The position numbers were made by a program, and so were the translations under genes. Shown in pieces: positions 36,611 through 47,340 of a stretch of DNA of 57,699 nucleotides (position 1 is its first letter; each line of letters opens with the position of its first letter). This DNA is from Paludibacterium purpuratum (GTDB lineage: Bacteria; Pseudomonadota; Gammaproteobacteria; Burkholderiales; Chromobacteriaceae). The stretch lies in NCBI RefSeq assembly GCF_004363805.1, contig NZ_SNZP01000020.1:1-57699 (forward strand), written 5' to 3'. The notes beneath the pieces were generated by a model. It saw only the letters and a list, made by a program, of their open reading frames with translations. It did not search any database and was not told the origin of the DNA.

Positions 36611-39600
36611 ATGAATCGCATCCATCGTACCGTATGGAACGAGGCACGCCAGTCCTTTGTCGTTACTCACGAAAACGCCGCCACACGCGGTAAACCTTCG
36701 CACACGCACAAAGCCGCCCTCCAGGCGGTGACCGCCGCGCTGCTCGCGCTCGGGGCATCCGATGCCTTGGCCGTGTGTAGCCCCATCAGCAGCAACACGA
36801 CGATCAGTTCCGCCGTGACCGGCCCGTGCACCGTCAGCAACGGTGCCAGCGTCACCGTCTCGGGCAGCGGATCGATCACCGGCGGTACCGACGGCTTGGA
36901 CGGTTTGTCTTTCGGCGCGATCAACAACGCCGGTTCGATCAACGGCGCTTCCTACGGCATCACCAGCTCCGGCGGCTCGCTAAGCGGCGGTATTACCAAC
37001 AGCGGCACCATCGTCGGCACCGGGATCGATGGCATCTATCTGCAATTCCATTCGGCCGTGAGCGGGGATATCGTCAATAGCGGGCTGATTCAAGGCCAAC
37101 ACGATGGCATCAACCTTCGCACCTCGACGGTTGTCGGGAATATCCTCAATACCGGTACCATTACGTCGACGACCGTCGCGGCGGTCGATGTCGAGAATCA
37201 CAGCACGGTCACGGGAGGGGTCGCGAATACCGGGCATCTGTCGGGCGCGACGGGCATCAGGGTGCGTTCCTATTCGAGCATCGCAGGCGGCATTACCAAT
37301 TCCGGTTCGATTGCCGGCGTACAGGCGGGCATCTTCCTCAGAAGCCACGACACGGTATCGGGCGGCATCACGAACGCCGGCACCATCTCCAGCAGCAGCA
37401 GCTCCGGCGTCCTCCTGACGGCATCGACGGTGGTCGGCGGCATCCACAACCTGTCCGGCGGCAACATTACAGGGGTGAAATACAGCATCTACGCCTCCGT
37501 AGGTAGCAGTATTTCCGGCGGCATCGTCAACGACGGCACGCTCATGGGCGGCGGAACGTTCTCCGGCATCGAAGCCGACAGAAACAGCACCATCAGCGGC
37601 GGCATCGTCAACCATGGCACCGTCACCGGCGCAGCGGCGGGTATTGGCGTGGGCAATGTCCCCGGGACCGTGGGGGGAAGCACGGCCAGCAGCATTGCCG
37701 GGGGGATCGCCAACAGCGGTTTAATCTCGGGGACGACGGTCGGGATCGGCGTGGTCAACCACAGTGCCATTGCCGACGGCGTCACCAATAGCGGCTCCCT
37801 GACTGGCGGTGCGTATGGCATTGCCGTCATCAGCCATGGAACGATAGCCGGCGGCGTCACGAATACCGGTACAGTCAACGGCGGCCAGGCCGGGGTGACG
37901 GTTCAGGGAAATGCCACGATCAGTGGCGGCCTGACCAATGCCGGCACGATTCAGTCCGCCACCGCGGCGATTCAACTGCTGACGGGCGGGTCGATCAACG
38001 ACGGCATCTTCAATCAACGCCAAGGACAGATCATCGCCACCGGCGGCGGGTCCGGCCTGTCGATACAAGCGGGAACCATCAATGGCGGCATCCATAACAG
38101 CGGGCTGATTTCCTCCGCCGCGGGTGCGGGGCTGGATATCTATCAATCCACCATCACTGGCGGCATCAGCAACGATGGTACGATTCTGGGCGCCAACTAC
38201 TACGCGCTCGAGGTCGACACCACCACGCTCACCGGCGGCATCACCAACAGCGGGTTCATCCATACGACGTCCGGCGACGGCATACGCCTCAGCGGAACGG
38301 CCACCTTGACATCCGGCGGCATCACCAACCTGTCGGGCGGAACCATCAGCGGCACCAATGGCATTTATGTCGAAACCGGCAGTCACCTGTCCGACGGCAT
38401 CAGTAATGCCGGCCTGATCTCCGGTACGACCAGATCCCTGGATCTGAACAACACCGTCAGCGGCTTTGTCGTCGCCAACAGCGGCATGCTGCAGGGCGAC
38501 GCCAATATCGGCATCAACAGCCTGAATCTGAATGGGACGAGCGCCCGCGTGATCGGCAATGTCACCGGGGCCAGCGGTACGGTCAATGTCAACGGCACAT
38601 TCACCAGCGAAGGCACGTTCAACGTCAACACCTTCAACATCGCCAGCGGCGGCCTGTTCAACATCGCCAACGGCGTGACCGTCGGCGGCGGCCACTTCAA
38701 CAACAGCGGCGTGCTTAACGTCGGCACCACGTCCCAAACCATCACCGGCGCCTATAGCCAGGCCGCGGGCGGCGCCTATCGCATCGGCCTGGTCGATCCC
38801 ACGAGCAACTACGGCAAACTGCACGTCACCGGCAACGCGACACTGGCCAGCGGTACCACCATCGACGTGAACATCGCGGGATCCCCCGCGATCACCAGCG
38901 GCACCACGGTACAAGGGGTACTGGTGGCGGGAGGGACACTGACGGCGACGCCGGCCAACATTACCGTCACCGACAACAGCGCCCTTTATAACTTTACAGC
39001 GTCCACGACACGCAACGCCAAGGAGGTGGATCTGGTCGCCGCCGTGAATCCAACCGCCTTCTCGGGGGCGGTCGATAGCAACAACAATTCGGCGGGCGGC
39101 GGGGCGGCAGGGGCGCTGCAGACCATGCTGAACACCGGCATCCCCACGGGCATGCAACCTGTGTTCGATCGCCTGAGCACCATGACCTCGTCCCAGGTGT
39201 CCAATGCCGTCTCCCAGATGCTGCCGGCGCTGCAGGGCGCCATGCCGCAGGCAGGCATGAGCGCGCTGCATAGCATGAACAAGATCATCCAGTCCAGGAT
39301 CGAGTCGAACCACGGCCTATCCTCGGGCGACGCGGTGCCGGACAAATATCTGTGGGTGCGAGCCTTCGGCAACCACGGCGACCAGGATGACCGCAATGGT
39401 GTCCCCGGCTTCAAATCGAATACCGGGGGTCTGGTCATCGGGGCCGATGCGCCGGTGACCGACCGCCTACGGGCGGGCGGCGCGTTCACTTACGCGCGAA
39501 GTACCATCACCGGCAATTCCGGCACCGCGCAAAACCATGCCGATGTCGATACTTACGAATTGGCGGGATACGCCAGCTACAACCTCGATCAAGCGACCGA

Positions 39601-40168
39601 TATCAATGCCCAGCTGGACGTCGGTCAGAACAAGGCGACCAGTCGCCGGCAGATCGATTTTATGGGCACCACCGCCTCGGCCGACATTGACAGCCTGGCC
39701 TGGCACGGTAGCCTCGGCATCGGGCGGACGCTGACCCTCTCCCCGCAAACCACTGTCACCCCATCGATCCGCCTGGACTACACACAGATGGAGACGGATG
39801 GGTATAGCGAAAGCGGCGCCGGCCCGATGAATCTGCAGGTGCAGAGCAATACCTACCGCGAATTCCTGCTGACCGGCGACATGAAGGGAACCCACCAGCT
39901 GTCGACAGCGCTGAAACTGGTGGGCAACATCAGCGTCGGCTACGACTTCATCAACAAGCAGGCGCAGACCGCCTCGACCTTTACCGGCGGCGGGCCCGCC
40001 TTCGTCACCAATGGCTTGTCGGTCTCTCCATGGGTATACCGCGCCGGTTTCGGTTTGATCAAGGAAGACCGCAAGGGATGGGAATACTCCTTGCGCTACG
40101 ACGTCGAGGGCCGCACCTCCGGCTACCTCAACCAAACGGTCTCGGCCCGTGTCCGTTGGGCGTTCTGA
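36611..40168 (+). CDS. Type V autotransporter with ESPR and beta-helical repeat passenger
   Basis: A surface or secreted protein of 1185 residues. It starts with an extended signal peptide region (MNRIHRTVWNEARQSFVV, residues 1-18), then a hydrophobic core and predicted cleavage after SDALA near residue 55. The passenger (about 55-780) is built from roughly twenty degenerate repeats of 24-26 residues with the core GGI(T/V)N(S/T)G(T/S)I, rich in glycine, serine, threonine and asparagine, and likely to fold as a beta-helix. Residues about 780-905 lead to the beta-barrel (from about DKYLWVRAFGNHGDQ, residue 908) ending VSARVRWAF with terminal phenylalanine, as BAM substrates do. Only two cysteines lie in the passenger start. 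A GGGGGA ribosome site precedes the ATG. Repeats rich in Ser/Thr suit glycosylation; the next genes encode modifying enzymes. Confidence 0.92.
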   Translation: MNRIHRTVWNEARQSFVVTHENAATRGKPSHTHKAALQAVTAALLALGASDALAVCSPISSNTTISSAVTGPCTVSNGASVTVSGSGSITGGTDGLDGLSFGAINNAGSINGASYGITSSGGSLSGGITNSGTIVGTGIDGIYLQFHSAVSGDIVNSGLIQGQHDGINLRTSTVVGNILNTGTITSTTVAAVDVENHSTVTGGVANTGHLSGATGIRVRSYSSIAGGITNSGSIAGVQAGIFLRSHDTVSGGITNAGTISSSSSSGVLLTASTVVGGIHNLSGGNITGVKYSIYASVGSSISGGIVNDGTLMGGGTFSGIEADRNSTISGGIVNHGTVTGAAAGIGVGNVPGTVGGSTASSIAGGIANSGLISGTTVGIGVVNHSAIADGVTNSGSLTGGAYGIAVISHGTIAGGVTNTGTVNGGQAGVTVQGNATISGGLTNAGTIQSATAAIQLLTGGSINDGIFNQRQGQIIATGGGSGLSIQAGTINGGIHNSGLISSAAGAGLDIYQSTITGGISNDGTILGANYYALEVDTTTLTGGITNSGFIHTTSGDGIRLSGTATLTSGGITNLSGGTISGTNGIYVETGSHLSDGISNAGLISGTTRSLDLNNTVSGFVVANSGMLQGDANIGINSLNLNGTSARVIGNVTGASGTVNVNGTFTSEGTFNVNTFNIASGGLFNIANGVTVGGGHFNNSGVLNVGTTSQTITGAYSQAAGGAYRIGLVDPTSNYGKLHVTGNATLASGTTIDVNIAGSPAITSGTTVQGVLVAGGTLTATPANITVTDNSALYNFTASTTRNAKEVDLVAAVNPTAFSGAVDSNNNSAGGGAAGALQTMLNTGIPTGMQPVFDRLSTMTSSQVSNAVSQMLPALQGAMPQAGMSALHSMNKIIQSRIESNHGLSSGDAVPDKYLWVRAFGNHGDQDDRNGVPGFKSNTGGLVIGADAPVTDRLRAGGAFTYARSTITGNSGTAQNHADVDTYELAGYASYNLDQATDINAQLDVGQNKATSRRQIDFMGTTASADIDSLAWHGSLGIGRTLTLSPQTTVTPSIRLDYTQMETDGYSESGAGPMNLQVQSNTYREFLLTGDMKGTHQLSTALKLVGNISVGYDFINKQAQTASTFTGGGPAFVTNGLSVSPWVYRAGFGLIKEDRKGWEYSLRYDVEGRTSGYLNQTVSARVRWAF

Positions 40169-40253
40169 TCGGCGATACGCGGGAGTTTTTTGCAAGCCGG
40201 AAATCTGGCAGTCTTATAGGTATTATCGTCGCAAGCGACAGGATGCCACCTGA

Positions 40254-43200
40254 ATGTCCATGACACTTGCCACACGTCCTGAAAACGACATGGCCTTGGC
40301 CCAAGCCTATGAGCAGCGGGGAGACCTGGCACAGGCCGAGGCCATCTACCGCCGCCTGCTCCAGCAGTCGCCCAACCATCACTCGGCCTGGCATGCCCTG
40401 GGGCTACTCGCGTTCCAGGCCGCCAACCTGCCGCTGGCCGTGCGCTGCCTCGAGGCCGCCATTGCCATCGACGGCAAGGTGGCGATCTACCTGCGCAATA
40501 TCGGCGAGTTGTATCGCCGCCAGGGACAATTCGACCGTGCGATCCGTGCCGGGCGCCGGGCGGTACGGCTGGCCCCGGGCGACCTGGACGCCCATTACAA
40601 CCTTGGACTGGCCTACACCGATGCCGGCGATTATCCGCATGCCATCGTCTCGTACCGCAAAGCGCTAAAAATCGACCAACGGCACAACCTTTCCTGGAAC
40701 AACCTCGGCAGTACCCTGGAGAAAAAAGGCGACAAGACTGCTGCGCTGGCGGCCTACGAGCAGGCCATCGCCATCGACCCCGGCCACGCCGAAGCACAGA
40801 ACAACGCCGGCGCGCTCTGCTTCGAAGCGGGAAGGTTGGAAGAGGCCCGCGCGCATTTCATCGCCGCCATCGCCGCCCGGCCGGACTTCGTCGAGGCGCA
40901 TTACAACCTTTCTTCCTTGAAAAGCTATACGCCCGACGACCCGCATCTGGCCTTGCTGGAACAGCTCTATGCGCGGCGGAATCAACTCAGCGAGCATGCC
41001 CGCATCCGCTATGGCTTCGCCCTGGGCAAGGCGCTGGACGATATCGGGGAATACGACCGGGCCTTTGCGGCCTACGAGGAAGGCAATCGCATCCAGCACG
41101 CCGGGCTACCGATGGACGAGTCCCGGGCCGATCGGCTGATGCGGGCGATCATGACGGTATTCGACGCCGACTTTTTCGCCGAACGGCGTCACTGGCAAGG
41201 CGCCGTCGATGCCAGTCGCACCCCCATCTTCATCGTCGGCATGCCGCGCTCCGGCACCTCCCTGCTGGAGCAGATCCTGTCGAGCCACGCTTCGGTTCAC
41301 GGCGCCGGGGAGCTGACCGAACTGAGCGAGAGCGTGGGCGCCGCAACCGGCGCAGGTGGCGACCGTTCGTTTACCGAGGGGGTTCGGTTGCTGTCCGAAG
41401 CCGAAATGAAGCGCATCGGCGACGACTACCTTCGGCGGGTATGGGCGCTTTCGCCGGAAAGCGCTTACATCACCGACAAGATGCCGGCCAATTTCTTCTA
41501 CCTGGGACTCATCCACCTGGCGCTGCCGCAGGCAAAGATCATTCACGCCATGCGCGACCCCATGGACTCGTGCTTCTCGTGCTACTCCCGTCTCTTCAAC
41601 GAAACCATGGAGTTCGCCTACGATCAGGGGACACTGGGGCGCTATTACCTGCGCTACATCACCTTGATGAAGCATTGGCACCGGGTTTTGCCTCCGGGCA
41701 CCATTCTCGACCTCCCTTACGAAGACATGGTGGCGGATACCGAAGGACAGGCACGCCGCGTCCTGGCGTTCATCGGCTTGCCCTGGGACGAGAATTGCCT
41801 GAAGTTCCATGAGAACAAGCGCCTGGTCAAAACGGCCAGCGTGGCCCAGGTTCGCAAACCCATCTACCAGAGCTCGGTCGCGCGCTGGAAGCACTTCGCC
41901 CGTCACCTGCAACCCCTGCTCGATATCGTCCGCGACCACCGTCCCGCAGACGGAGCCGAAATCTCGGCCTGCGAAGTACCGCCCGCCACCGCGGAAGAAG
42001 TTCACGCCACCGGCATCGCCCTCTATCGCCAGAACCGTTTCGCCGAGGCACTCGCCTGCTACGACCGAGCGCTGGCGATCAAGCCGGATTTCGCGGCGGC
42101 CCTGAATAGCCGGGGTTTCCTGTTGCAGGATCTCGACCGGATGGATGAGGCGCTGACGGACTTCTCGCGCGCGGTGACGCTGGCGCCGGAAATGGCCATG
42201 GCCCGCCTCAATTTGGGCATGGCGCAGTTGAAGCTCGGCGATTTCACCTCGGGCTGGGACAACTACGAGGCGCGCTGGTCGGGCTCCGCCGAGGCGAATT
42301 CCGGCAAGTTGGCAGCCCACGTTTGCCCTTTGCCGCAATGGAACGGCGAAGCCGATACCGCTGGGCTGCGGCTCCTCGTGATCACCGAGCAGGGTTTTGG
42401 CGATACCCTCCAGATGGCGCGCTACCTGCCGCTAGCCGCCCGGCGTTTCGCCAAACTCGGTTTCGCCTGCTCGCTGCCGACCCAACGTTTGATGGAATGG
42501 AGCTTCGGCGAAGAGCTGATCACGCTGACACGGCTGCCGGCGACACCGGATGCCTGGCAGTCCTGGGATCTGCAGTGCCCGCTGATGTCGCTGCCGCGGG
42601 CATTCGGAACCCGGCTCGACAGCATCCCCGCGGACACACCCTATTTACGGATTCCGGAGAAGGCCTTGGCATACTGGCGGGAACGCCTGGAACAAGCCGC
42701 GCCCGGACGGTTCCGCGTCGGCATCGCCTGGGCCGGACGCCAGGGCCACCAGTGCGACCAGCGGCGCAGCCTGCGTTTGGAACAACTCGCGCCCCTCTTC
42801 GACAACAAGCGCGTCACCTGGGTCAGCCTGCAAAAGTGGGCGCCGCAAGCCATGCGCCCGGACATCCCGCAGGCCATCGACTGGCTGGACTGGACCGACG
42901 AGCTGACGGACTTCGCCGACACGGCCGCGCTGGTCGGAAACCTGGATCTGATCATTTCCATCGACTCGGCCATGGTACATCTGGCCGGGGCGCTGGGCCG
43001 ACCGATATGGATGCTCGACCGCTTCGACAACGAGTGGCGCTGGCTGCACCATCGCGCGCACAGCCCCTGGTATCCGAGCCTGCGCATCTTCCGGCAGAGC
43101 GAGTTCGGCGACTGGGCAACGCCATTGGCCGACGCGGCCGATGCACTGGCCCAGTTAGCATCATCCCGCCCCATCCGATCACGAAAATCGGGGAAGCGCG

Positions 43201-45332
43201 CTTCTTCGTCCAAGGCGAACCGGCAACGCGTGCCGTCCAGCGCTGCGCCACCCGCCAGCATGACGGCGGAGACCGCTCTACACGTGGCCGGACAACATCA
43301 GAGCGCCGGACGCCTGATGGAAGCGGAGCAAGTCTTGCGGCAAATACTGCAGATCCAGCCGCGTCATGCCCATGCCCTCCATCTGCTGGGCGTGGTCGCC
43401 TACCAGGCGGGAAACAGCGAACAAGGGATCGGCCTCATCGGACAGGCGATGGAGATCGAACCGAATGTCGCCCTATTCCACAGCAACCTGGCTGAAATGC
43501 GCCGTCAAGCCGGCCGGCTTGACGAGGCCATCCGCCATGGCGAACGGGCGGTCGCGCTCGACCCCTCGATGGCTTCGGCGGTCTCGAACCTGGGTATCGC
43601 CTATTACGACGCCGGCGACTATGCGCGGGCCGAACGCTGCCATCAAACAGCCTTGGCCCTAGCGCCAAGGCTCGTCCAGTCGCTCAACAACCTGGGCAGC
43701 ATCGCCCGGGCGCGCAAAGACAAACGCGCGGCCATCGACTGGTACCGCAAAGCGCTGGCGAGCGCTCCCGACTATCTGGAAGCGCTGTCCAATCTGGGGG
43801 CGGCGCTGGTGGAAAACGAGCAATACAATGACGCGGTCGCGCCGCTGGAACGAGCGTTGCAGTTACAGCCCGCCTATCCGGAAGCCCTGTGCAATCTAGG
43901 TCTGGCCCGATTCAAACAGGATCGGCCAGGGGACGCCGCGGCCCTCCTGCGACGTTCGCTGCAGCTTCGCCCGGATTACCCCGAGGCACTGATCGGGCTC
44001 GCCACGGTGCGCCATGAACAAGGTGAGCTGACCGCCGCCTTCGATTTGCTCCAAGAGGCCATTGCCGTCGCCCCCGACAAGCAGGATGCCTGGACGCTGT
44101 TGGGCACCGTCTGTGTCGAACGCGATGCGCCCGACGAGGCCGAGGCGGCATACCGCCGCGCGCTCGACATCGACCGGGAAGCCACAGGTGCCTTGACCGG
44201 CCTGGGGTATCTGTCTATGGCGCTAGGCCGAACCGAAGAGGCCGAGGCGATCTTGCGCGAGGCGCTTGCGCTCGACCCCGATCAACTCGATGCCCGGTTC
44301 CACCTGGTTCAGGCTAGAAAAGTGGCTTCCCGGGATGAAAATGTCGCCGCCTTGGAAGCCCGCTTGGCCGGCGAATCCGACACCAAGCACCTGATCTCCC
44401 TGCACTACGCGCTCGGCAAAGCCTACGACGATCTCGAGGAGTGGGATCGCGCCTTCCCCCACTTCCTGGCGGGCGCCCGTCTGAAACGCGCCCAACTCGA
44501 CTACGACGCAGGGCTGGCGGCAGCCCGCACCCAACGCATCATCGATGTGGTCGATCAGCGCTTCATCGAACGCCACGGGCACGCCGGCGATCCATCCGAC
44601 GTGCCGGTCTTCATTCTCGGCATGCCGCGCTCGGGCACGACGCTCACCGAGCAGATTCTCGCCAGCCACCCGGCCGTGCATGGGGCCGGCGAATTGCCTG
44701 ACCTGATGGATCTCTGCCAGCGCCAAGGCGCGGGCGGGGAATGGCGGACTTTCCCGGAAAATCTGATCGACCTCGATAGCCAAACGCTGAGTGCTTGGGG
44801 ACGCGACTATGTGGCCGGCGTGCGTCGGCGCGCACAGAAAGCAAAACGCATCACCGACAAGATGCCGATCAACTATCTGGCGCTTGGGCTGATTCCACTC
44901 ATGTTGCCCCGCGCCAAAATCATCCATGTGCGGCGCAACCCGATCGATACCTGCGTCTCCTGCTTCACGAGGCTGTTCAACCGATACCAGGACGCCACCT
45001 ACGATCTGACCGAACTGGGGCGCCACTATGTCGATTACGCTCGCCTCATGAACCATTGGCGAGCGGTCTTGCCATCGGATAGTTTCCTCGAAGTCCAATA
45101 CGAAGACATCGTGGCCGATATGGCAGGACAGGCACGACGGCTGGTCGAATTCATCGGCCTGCCATGGGACGATGCCTGCCTGGCATTTCACACGACGAAG
45201 CGCACCGTCCGTACGGCAAGCATCGCCCAGGTTCGCCAGCCGATCTATTCGAGCTCGATCGAACGCTGGCGCCATTACCAAAGCCACCTGGGTCCATTGC
45301 TCGACGCACTCGGCGAGTTGGCGCCGCGATGA
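40254..45332 (+). CDS. Giant TPR protein with two sulfotransferase domains and a GT-like core
   Basis: A cytoplasmic protein of 1692 residues. TPR units (about 15-235) lead to a Sulfotransfer_3-type domain (about 322-565) with the 5'-phosphosulfate loop PRSGTS at 331-336 and KIIHAMRDPMDSCFS. A second TPR block (about 582-685) joins a domain (about 693-965) resembling the heptosyltransferase/GT9-like part of TPR glycosyltransferases (LLVITEQGFGDTLQMARYLP, SIDSAMVHLAGALG, DNEWRW). A basic serine-rich linker (about 970-1000) leads to a third TPR block (about 1005-1435) and a second sulfotransferase (about 1450-1692) with PRSGTT at 1458-1463 and KIIHVRRNPIDTC. The sulfotransferase halves are clear paralogues. 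PAPS use is inferred; substrates are unknown. It lies 85 bases after the autotransporter with no terminator between, and overlaps the hydrolase start. Confidence 0.9.
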   Translation: MSMTLATRPENDMALAQAYEQRGDLAQAEAIYRRLLQQSPNHHSAWHALGLLAFQAANLPLAVRCLEAAIAIDGKVAIYLRNIGELYRRQGQFDRAIRAGRRAVRLAPGDLDAHYNLGLAYTDAGDYPHAIVSYRKALKIDQRHNLSWNNLGSTLEKKGDKTAALAAYEQAIAIDPGHAEAQNNAGALCFEAGRLEEARAHFIAAIAARPDFVEAHYNLSSLKSYTPDDPHLALLEQLYARRNQLSEHARIRYGFALGKALDDIGEYDRAFAAYEEGNRIQHAGLPMDESRADRLMRAIMTVFDADFFAERRHWQGAVDASRTPIFIVGMPRSGTSLLEQILSSHASVHGAGELTELSESVGAATGAGGDRSFTEGVRLLSEAEMKRIGDDYLRRVWALSPESAYITDKMPANFFYLGLIHLALPQAKIIHAMRDPMDSCFSCYSRLFNETMEFAYDQGTLGRYYLRYITLMKHWHRVLPPGTILDLPYEDMVADTEGQARRVLAFIGLPWDENCLKFHENKRLVKTASVAQVRKPIYQSSVARWKHFARHLQPLLDIVRDHRPADGAEISACEVPPATAEEVHATGIALYRQNRFAEALACYDRALAIKPDFAAALNSRGFLLQDLDRMDEALTDFSRAVTLAPEMAMARLNLGMAQLKLGDFTSGWDNYEARWSGSAEANSGKLAAHVCPLPQWNGEADTAGLRLLVITEQGFGDTLQMARYLPLAARRFAKLGFACSLPTQRLMEWSFGEELITLTRLPATPDAWQSWDLQCPLMSLPRAFGTRLDSIPADTPYLRIPEKALAYWRERLEQAAPGRFRVGIAWAGRQGHQCDQRRSLRLEQLAPLFDNKRVTWVSLQKWAPQAMRPDIPQAIDWLDWTDELTDFADTAALVGNLDLIISIDSAMVHLAGALGRPIWMLDRFDNEWRWLHHRAHSPWYPSLRIFRQSEFGDWATPLADAADALAQLASSRPIRSRKSGKRASSSKANRQRVPSSAAPPASMTAETALHVAGQHQSAGRLMEAEQVLRQILQIQPRHAHALHLLGVVAYQAGNSEQGIGLIGQAMEIEPNVALFHSNLAEMRRQAGRLDEAIRHGERAVALDPSMASAVSNLGIAYYDAGDYARAERCHQTALALAPRLVQSLNNLGSIARARKDKRAAIDWYRKALASAPDYLEALSNLGAALVENEQYNDAVAPLERALQLQPAYPEALCNLGLARFKQDRPGDAAALLRRSLQLRPDYPEALIGLATVRHEQGELTAAFDLLQEAIAVAPDKQDAWTLLGTVCVERDAPDEAEAAYRRALDIDREATGALTGLGYLSMALGRTEEAEAILREALALDPDQLDARFHLVQARKVASRDENVAALEARLAGESDTKHLISLHYALGKAYDDLEEWDRAFPHFLAGARLKRAQLDYDAGLAAARTQRIIDVVDQRFIERHGHAGDPSDVPVFILGMPRSGTTLTEQILASHPAVHGAGELPDLMDLCQRQGAGGEWRTFPENLIDLDSQTLSAWGRDYVAGVRRRAQKAKRITDKMPINYLALGLIPLMLPRAKIIHVRRNPIDTCVSCFTRLFNRYQDATYDLTELGRHYVDYARLMNHWRAVLPSDSFLEVQYEDIVADMAGQARRLVEFIGLPWDDACLAFHTTKRTVRTASIAQVRQPIYSSSIERWRHYQSHLGPLLDALGELAPR

Positions 45333-46165
45333 CACGGATTCCGTTGCTCCTGGCTGCAGCGGTCTTGGCCGCCTGTTCGACGATGCCGACGCCGACCGAG
45401 CGGCGGGCGGCGGCCGATCAACTGGCTCGGGCCAAGAACTGGGAAATCCGATACATCGATGCAGGCCGCTTCCGGCTCGCGGCCTGGCGCCCGGCGCCGA
45501 TGCCGAACAATGTTAGGCTCACCATTTACATCGAAGGCGATGGCTTCGCCTGGGCCAGCCCGTCCCAGCCCGCCATCGACCCCACGCCGCTCGATCCGAT
45601 CGCACTCAAGCTGGCGCTCGCCCAACCGAACGGCAATGTCGCCTACCTGGCCCGCCCGTGCCAGTTCATCGATGCCGAAGCGACACACTGCGCAGTGGCC
45701 TATTGGACTGACCGGCGATTCTCCGAGGAGGTCGTCGCAGCCACCGATCGAGCCATCGGCGTGCTGAAGCAGGAAGCCGGCGCCACCGACCTCACCTTGG
45801 TGGGCTATTCCGGCGGCGGAGCGATTGCGGCGCTGGTGGCGGCGCGGCGCAACGATGTCGATCGCCTGGTGACCGTGGCAGGCAACCTGGATCATTCGGC
45901 CTGGACGGCTCAGCATCGCGTCCAGCCTCTGGAGGGATCGCTCAATCCGGTCGACGAGGTCGCCGCATTGCAGCGCGTGAGGCAATGGCATTTTGTCGGC
46001 GCGCAGGATACGATCGTCCCACCGGATCTCGTCACCGCCTTTGTCGCTCGTTTTCCGCCCGGTCGCCGCCCGACCGTGATCATCGAACCGCTATTCGACC
46101 ATCGCTGCTGCTGGGCGGCACAGTGGAGCAGCCTTTGGCCGCGTTTGGATTTCGACCGCCCATGA
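45329..46165 (+). CDS. Lipoprotein alpha/beta hydrolase
   Basis: A 278-residue protein that begins MTRIPLLLAAAVLAACSTMP, a lipoprotein signal with lipobox LAAC. The nucleophile elbow is GYSGGG near residue 152, the acid is likely in GAQDTIVPP, and the histidine in FDHRCC, so a catalytic triad is present. It could be an esterase, deacylase or thioesterase at the membrane facing the periplasm. Start and stop overlap the sulfotransferase and APS kinase genes by 4 bases on each side (ATGA), tying it to that operon. In this context an action on a modified surface protein or glycan is plausible but unproved. Confidence 0.85.
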   Translation: MTRIPLLLAAAVLAACSTMPTPTERRAAADQLARAKNWEIRYIDAGRFRLAAWRPAPMPNNVRLTIYIEGDGFAWASPSQPAIDPTPLDPIALKLALAQPNGNVAYLARPCQFIDAEATHCAVAYWTDRRFSEEVVAATDRAIGVLKQEAGATDLTLVGYSGGGAIAALVAARRNDVDRLVTVAGNLDHSAWTAQHRVQPLEGSLNPVDEVAALQRVRQWHFVGAQDTIVPPDLVTAFVARFPPGRRPTVIIEPLFDHRCCWAAQWSSLWPRLDFDRP

Positions 46166-46782
46166 CCCAGCATCTTACCTACGTCACCCACCGGCTCGGC
46201 GCCGAAGACCGGCTGCGCCATTACGGCCATGCCGGCGCAGTCGTCTGGCTCACCGGCCTCTCCGCCTCCGGCAAATCGACGCTATCCATGGCTCTGGAGC
46301 AGGAACTGACGCGTAACGGCTATTCCTGCTACGTTCTCGATGGCGACAATCTCCGCCATGGCCTCAATGCCAATCTGGGCTTCAGCCCCGAGGATCGTAG
46401 CGAGAACATCCGACGGGTCGGCGAGGTCGCGGCACTGTTCGCCGACGCCGGCCTCGTCTGCATCACCGCCTTCATCTCCCCCTACCGCGCCGACCGGGAG
46501 CGCGCCCGCGGCGCTTGCCGTCAGACATTTCACGAGGTGCATATCGCCACCGACTTGGCGGTGTGCGAATCGAGGGATCCGAAAGGGTTGTACCGAAAGG
46601 CGAGAATGGGTGAACTGCCGGATTTCACCGGCATCGATGCGCCATACGAGCAGCCCGAAAGCTGCGAGCTCACAATCGACACCTCGGATGAATCGATTGC
46701 GCAAAGCCTGGATAAGCTGATTGCCTATGTCCGCCGGGCGATTCCGCTGGAACGGCAGAAAGCGAATCGACCCGGGGCATAG
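46162..46782 (+). CDS. cysC: Adenylylsulfate (APS) kinase
   Basis: A 206-residue kinase that phosphorylates APS at the 3' hydroxyl to give PAPS, the sulfate donor of sulfotransferases. Walker A is GLSASGKST at 32-40. Other family marks are VLDGDNLRHGLNANLGFS (APS-binding), ENIRRVGEVAALFADAG, FISPYRADRERAR and KGLYRKARMGELPDFTGID. Complete and unfused; no ATP sulfurylase is nearby, so APS must come from elsewhere. Its start overlaps the hydrolase stop, which places PAPS synthesis in the same transcript as the double sulfotransferase. Confidence 0.95.
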   Translation: MTQHLTYVTHRLGAEDRLRHYGHAGAVVWLTGLSASGKSTLSMALEQELTRNGYSCYVLDGDNLRHGLNANLGFSPEDRSENIRRVGEVAALFADAGLVCITAFISPYRADRERARGACRQTFHEVHIATDLAVCESRDPKGLYRKARMGELPDFTGIDAPYEQPESCELTIDTSDESIAQSLDKLIAYVRRAIPLERQKANRPGA

Positions 46783-46821: not shown

Positions 46822-47340
46822 TTACTTGGCCGGTGCTTGCAGCGGCACGGAAGCATCGAGCGGCATCATCATCCCCATGCTGCTCACCAGACACATCGTC
46901 TTCGGATCCTGCGCCAGATGCAGCGCCAAGCGGCTACGCGCCTGGGTGAACTGCGTCGAAATCATGAACTGCACGCTATACAACGGCAGGTAGGCCGGCG
47001 GCGGATTGAAATACTTCGCGAAAGCGTAGACGCCGGCGATACCCAGGGCGGACAACGGATAGCTATGGCCTTCGAAGTACGACTTGGCGCTCATCATCAA
47101 CGTTTTGGTGTTGATCACATACTCGGTCCTGACCTTCTTGCCGAGCAGTGGCTGAAACTCCTTCTGGCAGGCCGCATTCATGGCGGGGTCCGGGGCGCCG
47201 GTTTCGTTAAGCGCGGTGATGGTGCGCAACGGCAGGGTCACAACACCTCGATGCACATCGCCGGCGGCCTGGGCCATAGGGGATAGCAGCATGGAGATTG
47301 CGGCGGCACATAGCAATCTGAACAACGCTTTCATCGACAT
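46822..47340 (-). CDS. Exported protein of unknown function
   Basis: A 172-residue protein with a Sec signal peptide cleaved probably after AQA near residue 25 (MSMKALFRLLCAAAISMLL then SPMAQA|AGDVH). The mature part has two cysteines (NAACQKEF and KTMCLVSS) that could pair in the periplasm. I recognise no family. An AAGGAG site 5 bases before the ATG supports the start. It is convergent with cysC and followed on its own strand by nothing related, so it appears to be a single-gene unit. The AT-rich stretch upstream (47345-47460) probably holds its promoter. Confidence 0.75.
   Translation of the reverse strand: MSMKALFRLLCAAAISMLLSPMAQAAGDVHRGVVTLPLRTITALNETGAPDPAMNAACQKEFQPLLGKKVRTEYVINTKTLMMSAKSYFEGHSYPLSALGIAGVYAFAKYFNPPPAYLPLYSVQFMISTQFTQARSRLALHLAQDPKTMCLVSSMGMMMPLDASVPLQAPAK

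Follow-up and report, generated by a model that had tools for sequence, protein, structure and literature searches.

The window analyzed here is the whole stretch of 57,699 nucleotides of contig NZ_SNZP01000020.1 from Paludibacterium purpuratum (assembly GCF_004363805.1, forward strand). Positions 36611 to 46782 of this window harbor a cluster of four genes on the + strand, which encode, in this order, an autotransporter (AT), a fusion protein of 1692 amino acids (aa), a lipoprotein hydrolase (HYD), and CysC, a kinase of adenosine 5'-phosphosulfate (APS). This is a real and recurrent gene system, and as judged from the sequences its parts fit a modification of an autotransporter that depends on 3'-phosphoadenosine 5'-phosphosulfate (PAPS). 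With a rough probability of 0.55, the cluster may be a self-contained system for the production of a sulfated, and probably glycosylated, surface autotransporter. The features are as follows, with ST and GT indicating sulfotransferase and glycosyltransferase, respectively, TPR tetratricopeptide repeats, and the evidence in brackets.

36611..40168, + strand: AT gene, type Va autotransporter, 1185 aa (PF13018, PF03797, own-genome search, translation)
40169..40253, no strand: intergenic gap of 85 bases (consensus scan for terminator-like sites)
40254..45332, + strand: fusion protein TPR / ST-A / TPR-GT / TPR / ST-B, 1692 aa (translation, family search, tree)
41220..41924, + strand: predicted sulfotransferase A domain, PF13469, clade ST-A (5.8e-49, tree, motifs)
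41997..43209, + strand: TPR plus GT9-like putative glycosyltransferase domain, GT from about 42324 (PF01075 with 21.7 bits, alignment)
44595..45308, + strand: predicted sulfotransferase B domain, PF13469, clade ST-B (8.8e-48, best PDB match, tree)
45329..46165, + strand: predicted lipoprotein alpha/beta-hydrolase HYD, 278 aa (lipobox, GYSGGG, alignment of 56 sequences)
46162..46782, + strand: predicted APS kinase CysC, 206 aa, P-loop intact (PF01583, TIGR00455, PDB match)

The open reading frames (ORFs) and the family searches confirmed these four genes at the positions given by the initial annotation, and its description of the junctions was also correct. The consensus scan listed no terminator-like site on the + strand in the gap of 85 bases, and the last three genes overlap by 4 bases, with ATGA at both junctions and the starts of HYD (45329) and cysC (46162) each lying over the preceding stop codon. 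The ORF list contained no further gene inside the cluster. Since the next gene-like ORF downstream, 46822 to 47340, is on the opposite strand, the unit seems to end at position 46782.

The AT begins with an ESPR sequence (PF13018, residues 1 to 49, 1.9e-14), followed by a passenger with Ser/Thr/Gly-rich repeats and a C-terminal beta-barrel (PF03797, residues 914 to 1150, 2.8e-48, positions 39350 to 40060); signal, passenger, and barrel on one chain are those of a type Va autotransporter. The fusion protein contains two PF13469 stretches, both above the curated cut-off and with sulfotransferase motifs, and no signal peptide was apparent by eye. In an alignment of 60 ST domains, composed of the 50 rows of the ST tree and ten domains from loci L139 to L145, the 5'-phosphosulfate-binding motif (PRSGT), a Glu, a Lys, and the Arg and Ser of the 3'-phosphate-binding motif were conserved in nearly all domains. 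The aligned Glu and Lys are presumably the catalytic residues of human protein-tyrosine sulfotransferase (TPST). Both window domains possess the 5' motif, the catalytic base, and the 3' motif, and should be PAPS-dependent sulfotransferases.

CysC matched PF01583 (2.9e-66) and TIGR00455 (244.5 bits with a cut-off of 138.7), both above the cut-offs, possesses an intact P-loop, and found the kinase domain of human PAPS synthetase 1 in the PDB, which is consistent with a function as APS kinase. In HYD, the lipobox Cys16, the nucleophile Ser161 in a GYSGGG motif, the putative Asp227, and His258 were all invariant in an alignment of 56 sequences, indicating a candidate lipoprotein alpha/beta-hydrolase with a lipobox Cys and a Ser-Asp-His triad. 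It matched PF00561 with 26.5 bits (cut-off 25.8), and weak profile matches in the PDB were cinnamoyl and chlorogenic acid esterases.

Concerning the supply of PAPS, the P. purpuratum genome encodes elsewhere CysN, a CysD-like protein, and a reductase with CC and CxxC cysteines, which we take to be the signature of an APS reductase. Because the genome seems to possess an APS reductase, cysteine synthesis should not need PAPS. From these genes, PAPS in this bacterium looks dedicated to sulfotransfer. The only PF13469 match of the genome outside the cluster is a TPR-ST on contig C6, and the only other APS-kinase match above 100 bits is a divergent gene on contig C13 (L041:9419-9988) with 103 bits, compared to 224 bits for CysC of the cluster. 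As judged by eye, a nucleotidyltransferase-like gene is located near this divergent gene.

The presence of ST and APS kinase was compared in 150 relatives, with thresholds of E ≤ 1e-3 for ST and E ≤ 1e-20 for APS kinase, and with the relatedness of the genomes uncorrected. All 17 ST-positive genomes contained an APS kinase, compared to 32 of the 133 ST-negative genomes (p = 6e-10); 14 of the 17 ST matches were at E ≤ 1e-25, and those of G075, G096, and G109 were weak (1e-6 to 6e-10). When the family of the window was tallied minus genus g8 (42 genomes), the ST-positive and the CysC-positive sets were the same five genomes, each with a CysC no more than 6 kb away from an ST. Three loci that are Legionellaceae-like by label or tree (L125, L135, L136) hold an AT, HYD, and two STs together with an ATP-sulfurylase fused to an APS kinase, that is, a complete PAPS synthetase.

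A scan of genome contigs with HYD gave at least 548 confirmed relatives, the best 80 of which were kept as HYD loci and their genes counted in a six-frame scan. ST was present in 21 of these 80 loci, including two partial matches (L087, L123), GT in 10, and CysC in 13. The distribution was not even: CysC occurred in 10 of the 21 loci with ST versus 3 of the 59 without (p = 3.8e-5), and of the latter three, L079 has a GT and L102 a gene that is TPR-like by eye and cut by the contig end. The HYD loci, the window, and genome-derived loci together gave 28 loci with HYD and ST, counted with an ST match of more than 100 positions and an AT barrel below 1e-20. The initial annotation had made its case depend on homologous clusters keeping the AT beside the other genes, and this was what they did, with an AT barrel in 19 of the 28 loci and, in three more (L121, L138, L140), a large protein that begins with ESPR and is truncated by the locus end. 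Six loci had neither; in four of these (L051, L068, L077, L094) the contig ends in or close to the cluster, L098 has a truncated passenger-like start, and the sixth is L092. Clusters composed of these parts also exist elsewhere, and the arrangement in the window is not due to chance.

The initial annotation had proposed to score the co-occurrence of ESPR autotransporters, but ESPR is not a constant feature. With a model built for this analysis, 12 of the 19 ST-positive loci with an AT barrel had no ESPR match, some of them being cut genes, so that ESPR was rejected as a defining feature of the clusters.

HYD is a frequent and general companion of autotransporters. An AT barrel was present in 59 of the 80 HYD loci, including one weak match in L116 (3e-6), and was on the same strand and within 1 kb in 34 of the 59; several of the remaining HYD loci end at contig ends. 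In the 150 relatives, 22 HYD genes were below 1e-50, and an AT barrel was within 6 kb of 18 of them, as tallied from the match coordinates. The four exceptions were G002, where the parts are spread over separate contigs, G034 with its second HYD, G040 with no AT found, and G080, for which the place of the AT was not listed. The hydrolase is not specific to sulfation: an ST match was missing from 59 of the 80 loci, and a general function of HYD as a sulfation enzyme was rejected for this reason. On the HYD tree (87 rows, quick method, SH-aLRT only), the label "with modification genes" needed 19 changes, at least four of them forced by starred branches, and the modification module and the AT-HYD pair were therefore combined or separated repeatedly. 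In two Methylophaga loci (L130:8307-10777, L133:2-2337), the neighbor of HYD was, by eye, a protein with a VPLPA...-type sorting-like C-terminal tail and no barrel; the one of L133 has NSGTI-type repeats and no Pfam match. HYD may thus follow a repeat protein instead of a barrel.

Genome G034 of the same family contains, in locus L044, the order AT-ST-GT-HYD-CysC on one strand, as split genes with ATGA overlaps at two junctions. Related arrangements are found in G014 (L055), also of this family, with ST and GT in broken frames, and in G002 of the same genus, with the parts split over contigs. An orthology of the window cluster with those of G034, G002, and G014 was not supported, because the HYDs are in a separate starred branch and the single ST is outside ST-A and ST-B. 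This set of parts may either have assembled repeatedly or have diverged very early. Six ST matches were present in G002 (L045-L047, L050, L051), two of them as a divergent pair on contig C49 and one on C105 with cysC directly behind it.

The ST tree contained 50 domains, mostly from loci found via HYD, which partly biases the membership of clade ST-A. The first window domain was in this clade of 13 rows (100/99) and the second in the clade ST-B of 18 rows (100/99). The "double sulfotransferase" of the initial annotation indeed has two ST domains, but their position in separate clades excludes a recent tandem duplication, leaving a fusion of distinct paralogues. All 13 ST-A rows came from HYD loci, and a search of the 150 relatives that was independent of HYD added no further ST-A row. 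Fusions of the order ST-GT-ST as in the window, with HYD in the locus, occur in L065, L099, L107, L109, and L140, and ST-A and ST-B are encoded by separate genes in L077, L080, L092, L126, and L139. In the three Legionellaceae-like loci mentioned above, one ST is in ST-A and the other outside the 18-row ST-B clade.

Further searches that did not start from HYD used ST-A in 369 genomes of the class and ST-B in 398 genomes of the phylum. Forty ST loci were chosen by hand, 20 at high-scoring matches and 20 at others. The seven closest (L139-L145), with 58 to 68% identity to ST-A or ST-B, contained HYD in three, CysC in two, and an AT barrel in two cases, plus an ESPR protein in two more (L140, L142). 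The other 33 loci (44 to 54% identity) had no HYD and no CysC, and an AT in two cases (L151, L173). Common bacterial TPR-sulfotransferases resemble the fusion protein in their N-terminal TPR and their PF13469 domain; ST-A and ST-B differ from them by forming clades of their own in the sampled tree, and by the lack of HYD and CysC in those 33 loci.

The domain between ST-A and ST-B, which is preceded by TPR repeats, scored with 21.7 bits (also 20.4) just under the 22-bit cut-off of PF01075. It was 60 to 68% identical to eight of the ten other aligned GT domains and 33 to 35% to the remaining two, and the only PDB entries that its profile matched, and these weakly, were heptosyltransferases of lipopolysaccharide (LPS) synthesis (LPS heptosyltransferase 1, E = 0.034). 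The initial annotation had likened this TPR-linked domain to the bacterial autotransporter heptosyltransferases (BAHT), and this assignment had to be abandoned. BAHT enzymes are characterized by the four conserved cysteines of an iron finger and an N-terminal beta-barrel, according to PMC4358343, in which the term "TPR" does not occur. Only one Cys was invariant in the 11 GT domains, the four cysteines of the iron finger were not conserved, and TibC was not found among the PDB profile matches up to E = 1.

From these parts we infer enzymatic activities, a substrate, and a site of action that may come together in the following way. CysDN, encoded elsewhere in the genome, would provide APS, and CysC of the cluster would convert it to PAPS. 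The passenger would be bound in the cytoplasm by the TPRs of the TPR-ST-A-GT-ST-B protein and receive a sugar from the GT on Ser/Thr (or Asn) residues in its beta-helix repeats. The two STs would each sulfate a different position, in all likelihood on this sugar. The cytoplasmic site is suggested because the ST-GT-ST protein and CysC are without an apparent signal peptide and because BAHT and HMW1C enzymes modify type V proteins ahead of export, as described in PMC8151025. Sec would export the modified product, which its own barrel would present on the surface. HYD would act after export as an esterase or peptidase for the maturation or surface editing of many ATs, sulfated or not. Of the earlier claim that the cluster makes a sulfated AT, the linkage of AT, ST, PAPS supply, GT, and hydrolase is supported by the recurrence of the clusters and by the statistical association, while sulfation itself continues to be a prediction.

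A wider reading, to which we would give somewhat less than even odds and which is therefore offered tentatively, is that of a widespread, undescribed system for protein sulfation in type V secretion. TPR-STs of two paralogous clades, a GT, and a dedicated PAPS source would produce glycans sulfated at two positions on the repeats of ATs and of some two-partner exoproteins, yielding an anionic, heparin-like protein coat, and the HYD family with its at least 548 relatives would be a general, overlooked maturation factor of ATs.

Several findings weigh against a sulfated and glycosylated AT as the product. The most similar sulfotransferases of known structure have tyrosine as their acceptor, yet the passengers are not enriched in Tyr and contain fewer acidic residues. 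No GT was detected in the ST-positive loci L074, L080, L108, and L126; a glycan acceptor in these cases would therefore need a GT encoded elsewhere. L092 holds HYD and two STs and no AT in 20 kb. TPR-STs are common regardless of ATs, with 83 of the 369 class genomes and 164 of the 398 phylum genomes, and the loci of two close ST-B relatives, L141 and, at a contig end, L143, contain none of AT, HYD, and CysC. The best ST-B relative, in G084 (L042, 66% identity), is also without HYD and CysC and has an ESPR protein that looks like filamentous hemagglutinin as its neighbor; an ST-B relative beside an ESPR protein occurs in L043, too. In L049, L050, and L057, a TPR-ST outside ST-A and ST-B has CysC directly behind it in a locus without an AT barrel or HYD, and the link to PAPS belongs therefore to TPR-STs generally and not only to the AT clusters. 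Finally, 13 of the 19 genomes of genus g8 have a CysC without an ST match (tally), and PAPS or CysC likely has another use in this genus.

In L042:9609-19138 and in L043 (1514-8173, with the ST match from 9783), an ST-B gene is located next to an ESPR-like protein of 2219 to 2363 aa, the translation of which resembles exoproteins of two-partner secretion. The modification may therefore include proteins other than classical autotransporters.

Alternatively, ST-A and ST-B may be protein-tyrosine sulfotransferases like RaxST and TPST and act in the cytoplasm on Tyr of the passenger, with the GT responsible for a separate modification. This is rather unlikely, although the best PDB match of ST-B was a protein-tyrosine sulfotransferase (8w5z, 7e-10), TPST2 also matched (3ap1, 7e-7), the Glu and Lys assigned above to TPST catalysis are aligned and conserved, and several ST-positive loci have no GT. 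Heparan-sulfate 3-O-sulfotransferases were among the PDB matches of ST-B as well. Passengers of at least 200 aa, 20 from ST-positive and 44 from ST-negative loci, were compared for 22 features, with relatedness uncorrected. Tyr was not enriched in the ST-positive passengers (1.75% compared to 2.10%, p = 0.13), and neither was acid-flanked Tyr; the contexts of the 14 Tyr in the window passenger had no common pattern by eye. S+T was higher in the ST-positive passengers (23.2 compared to 20.9, nominal p = 0.008), as were N-X-S/T sequons per 100 residues (1.88 compared to 1.29, p = 0.017), and D+E was lower (4.7 compared to 6.1, p = 0.015), all three differences being such that they would fail a correction for 22 tests. 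The strongest of the 22 features was a lower K+R content (2.7 compared to 4.1, p = 1e-5), followed by higher Ile (7e-5) and lower Arg and Phe (about 5e-4 each). Passenger composition leans away from tyrosine and towards sugar as the sulfate acceptor. The highest Tyr content in the HYD-locus set, 7.5%, was that of the passenger of a Methylotenera AT adjoining HYD (L115:695-4711), which is located on a short contig without ST.

A second alternative is that ST, GT, and CysC serve to modify LPS or a polysaccharide of the cell surface, with AT and HYD being just their neighbors. TPR-STs and CysC in many genomes without ATs, the ST-CysC pairs of L049, L050, and L057, and L140, in which three further ORFs, at least two of them glycosyltransferase-like by eye only, are located between CysC and the ESPR protein, would be in agreement with this. 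We regard it as unlikely, because the window cluster holds no other gene, the ST-GT-ST fusion, HYD, and the AT recur jointly in several families, and HYD and CysC are absent from the 33 loci with more distant STs. The substrate of the STs may also be a different exported protein, such as HYD, with the AT being a neighbor, since the ESPR proteins next to ST-B in L042, L043, and L142 need not be classical ATs. Those neighbors, however, are by eye large secreted repeat proteins, too, which fits a shared class of substrates, and HYD does without an ST match in most of its loci, making this explanation very improbable. A chance adjacency of unrelated genes deserves next to no credence, given that 18 of the 22 HYD genes have an AT barrel at a distance of 6 kb or less, compared to 2 AT barrels in the 4.04 Mb of the P. 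purpuratum genome, and given the co-occurrence of CysC with ST in the 80 loci and in the 150 genomes.

Elsewhere in the window, between positions 2884 and 21309, translations resembling CheR, CheB, CheA, CheV/CheW, and methyl-accepting proteins by eye form a chemotaxis-like cluster.

To our knowledge, there are very few bacterial proteins with demonstrated sulfation, RaxX being one of them. In the open-access full text of PMC, neither a report of autotransporter sulfation nor one of this cluster was found among the matches listed. The BAHT systems AIDA-I/Aah and TibA/TibC resemble the cluster by a dedicated cytoplasmic enzyme, often encoded beside a beta-helix AT, that modifies Ser/Thr before export (PMC8151025, PMC4358343). 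TibC, however, forms dodecamers and has a four-Cys iron finger, and "TPR" is not mentioned in its description (PMC4358343), whereas in the cluster the GT9-like domain is linked to TPRs and does not have those cysteines, and sulfotransferases and a PAPS supply are present in addition. The HMW1C/EtpC N-glycosyltransferases, which belong to two-partner exoproteins, are also dedicated, co-transcribed cytoplasmic enzymes for the modification of type V adhesins but are glycosyltransferases of a different kind, and the character string "sulf" occurs 0 times in the review describing them (PMC8151025). RaxX-RaxST from Xanthomonas, with RaxST modelled on human TPST2, is similar to the cluster in that the gene of a sulfotransferase using PAPS adjoins that of its secreted substrate. 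In this case, the substrate is a small peptide with predicted type I export, and PAPS comes from housekeeping genes (PMC6637879). The cluster, in contrast, encodes a large autotransporter and its own APS kinase. It did not qualify as a RaxX-RaxST system, as no RaxAB-type ABC exporter is among its four genes, with short peptide genes not being searched for.

If the cluster produces a sulfated autotransporter, many Proteobacteria would possess, besides glycosylation, sulfation as a further dedicated modification of surface proteins that use type V secretion. This would account for an APS kinase that was kept by a genome seeming to assimilate sulfate via APS reductase, and it would alter the charge of the surface as well as adhesion and recognition. 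The pairing of HYD with autotransporters, which is much wider than sulfation, hints at a missing general step in the biogenesis of autotransporters.

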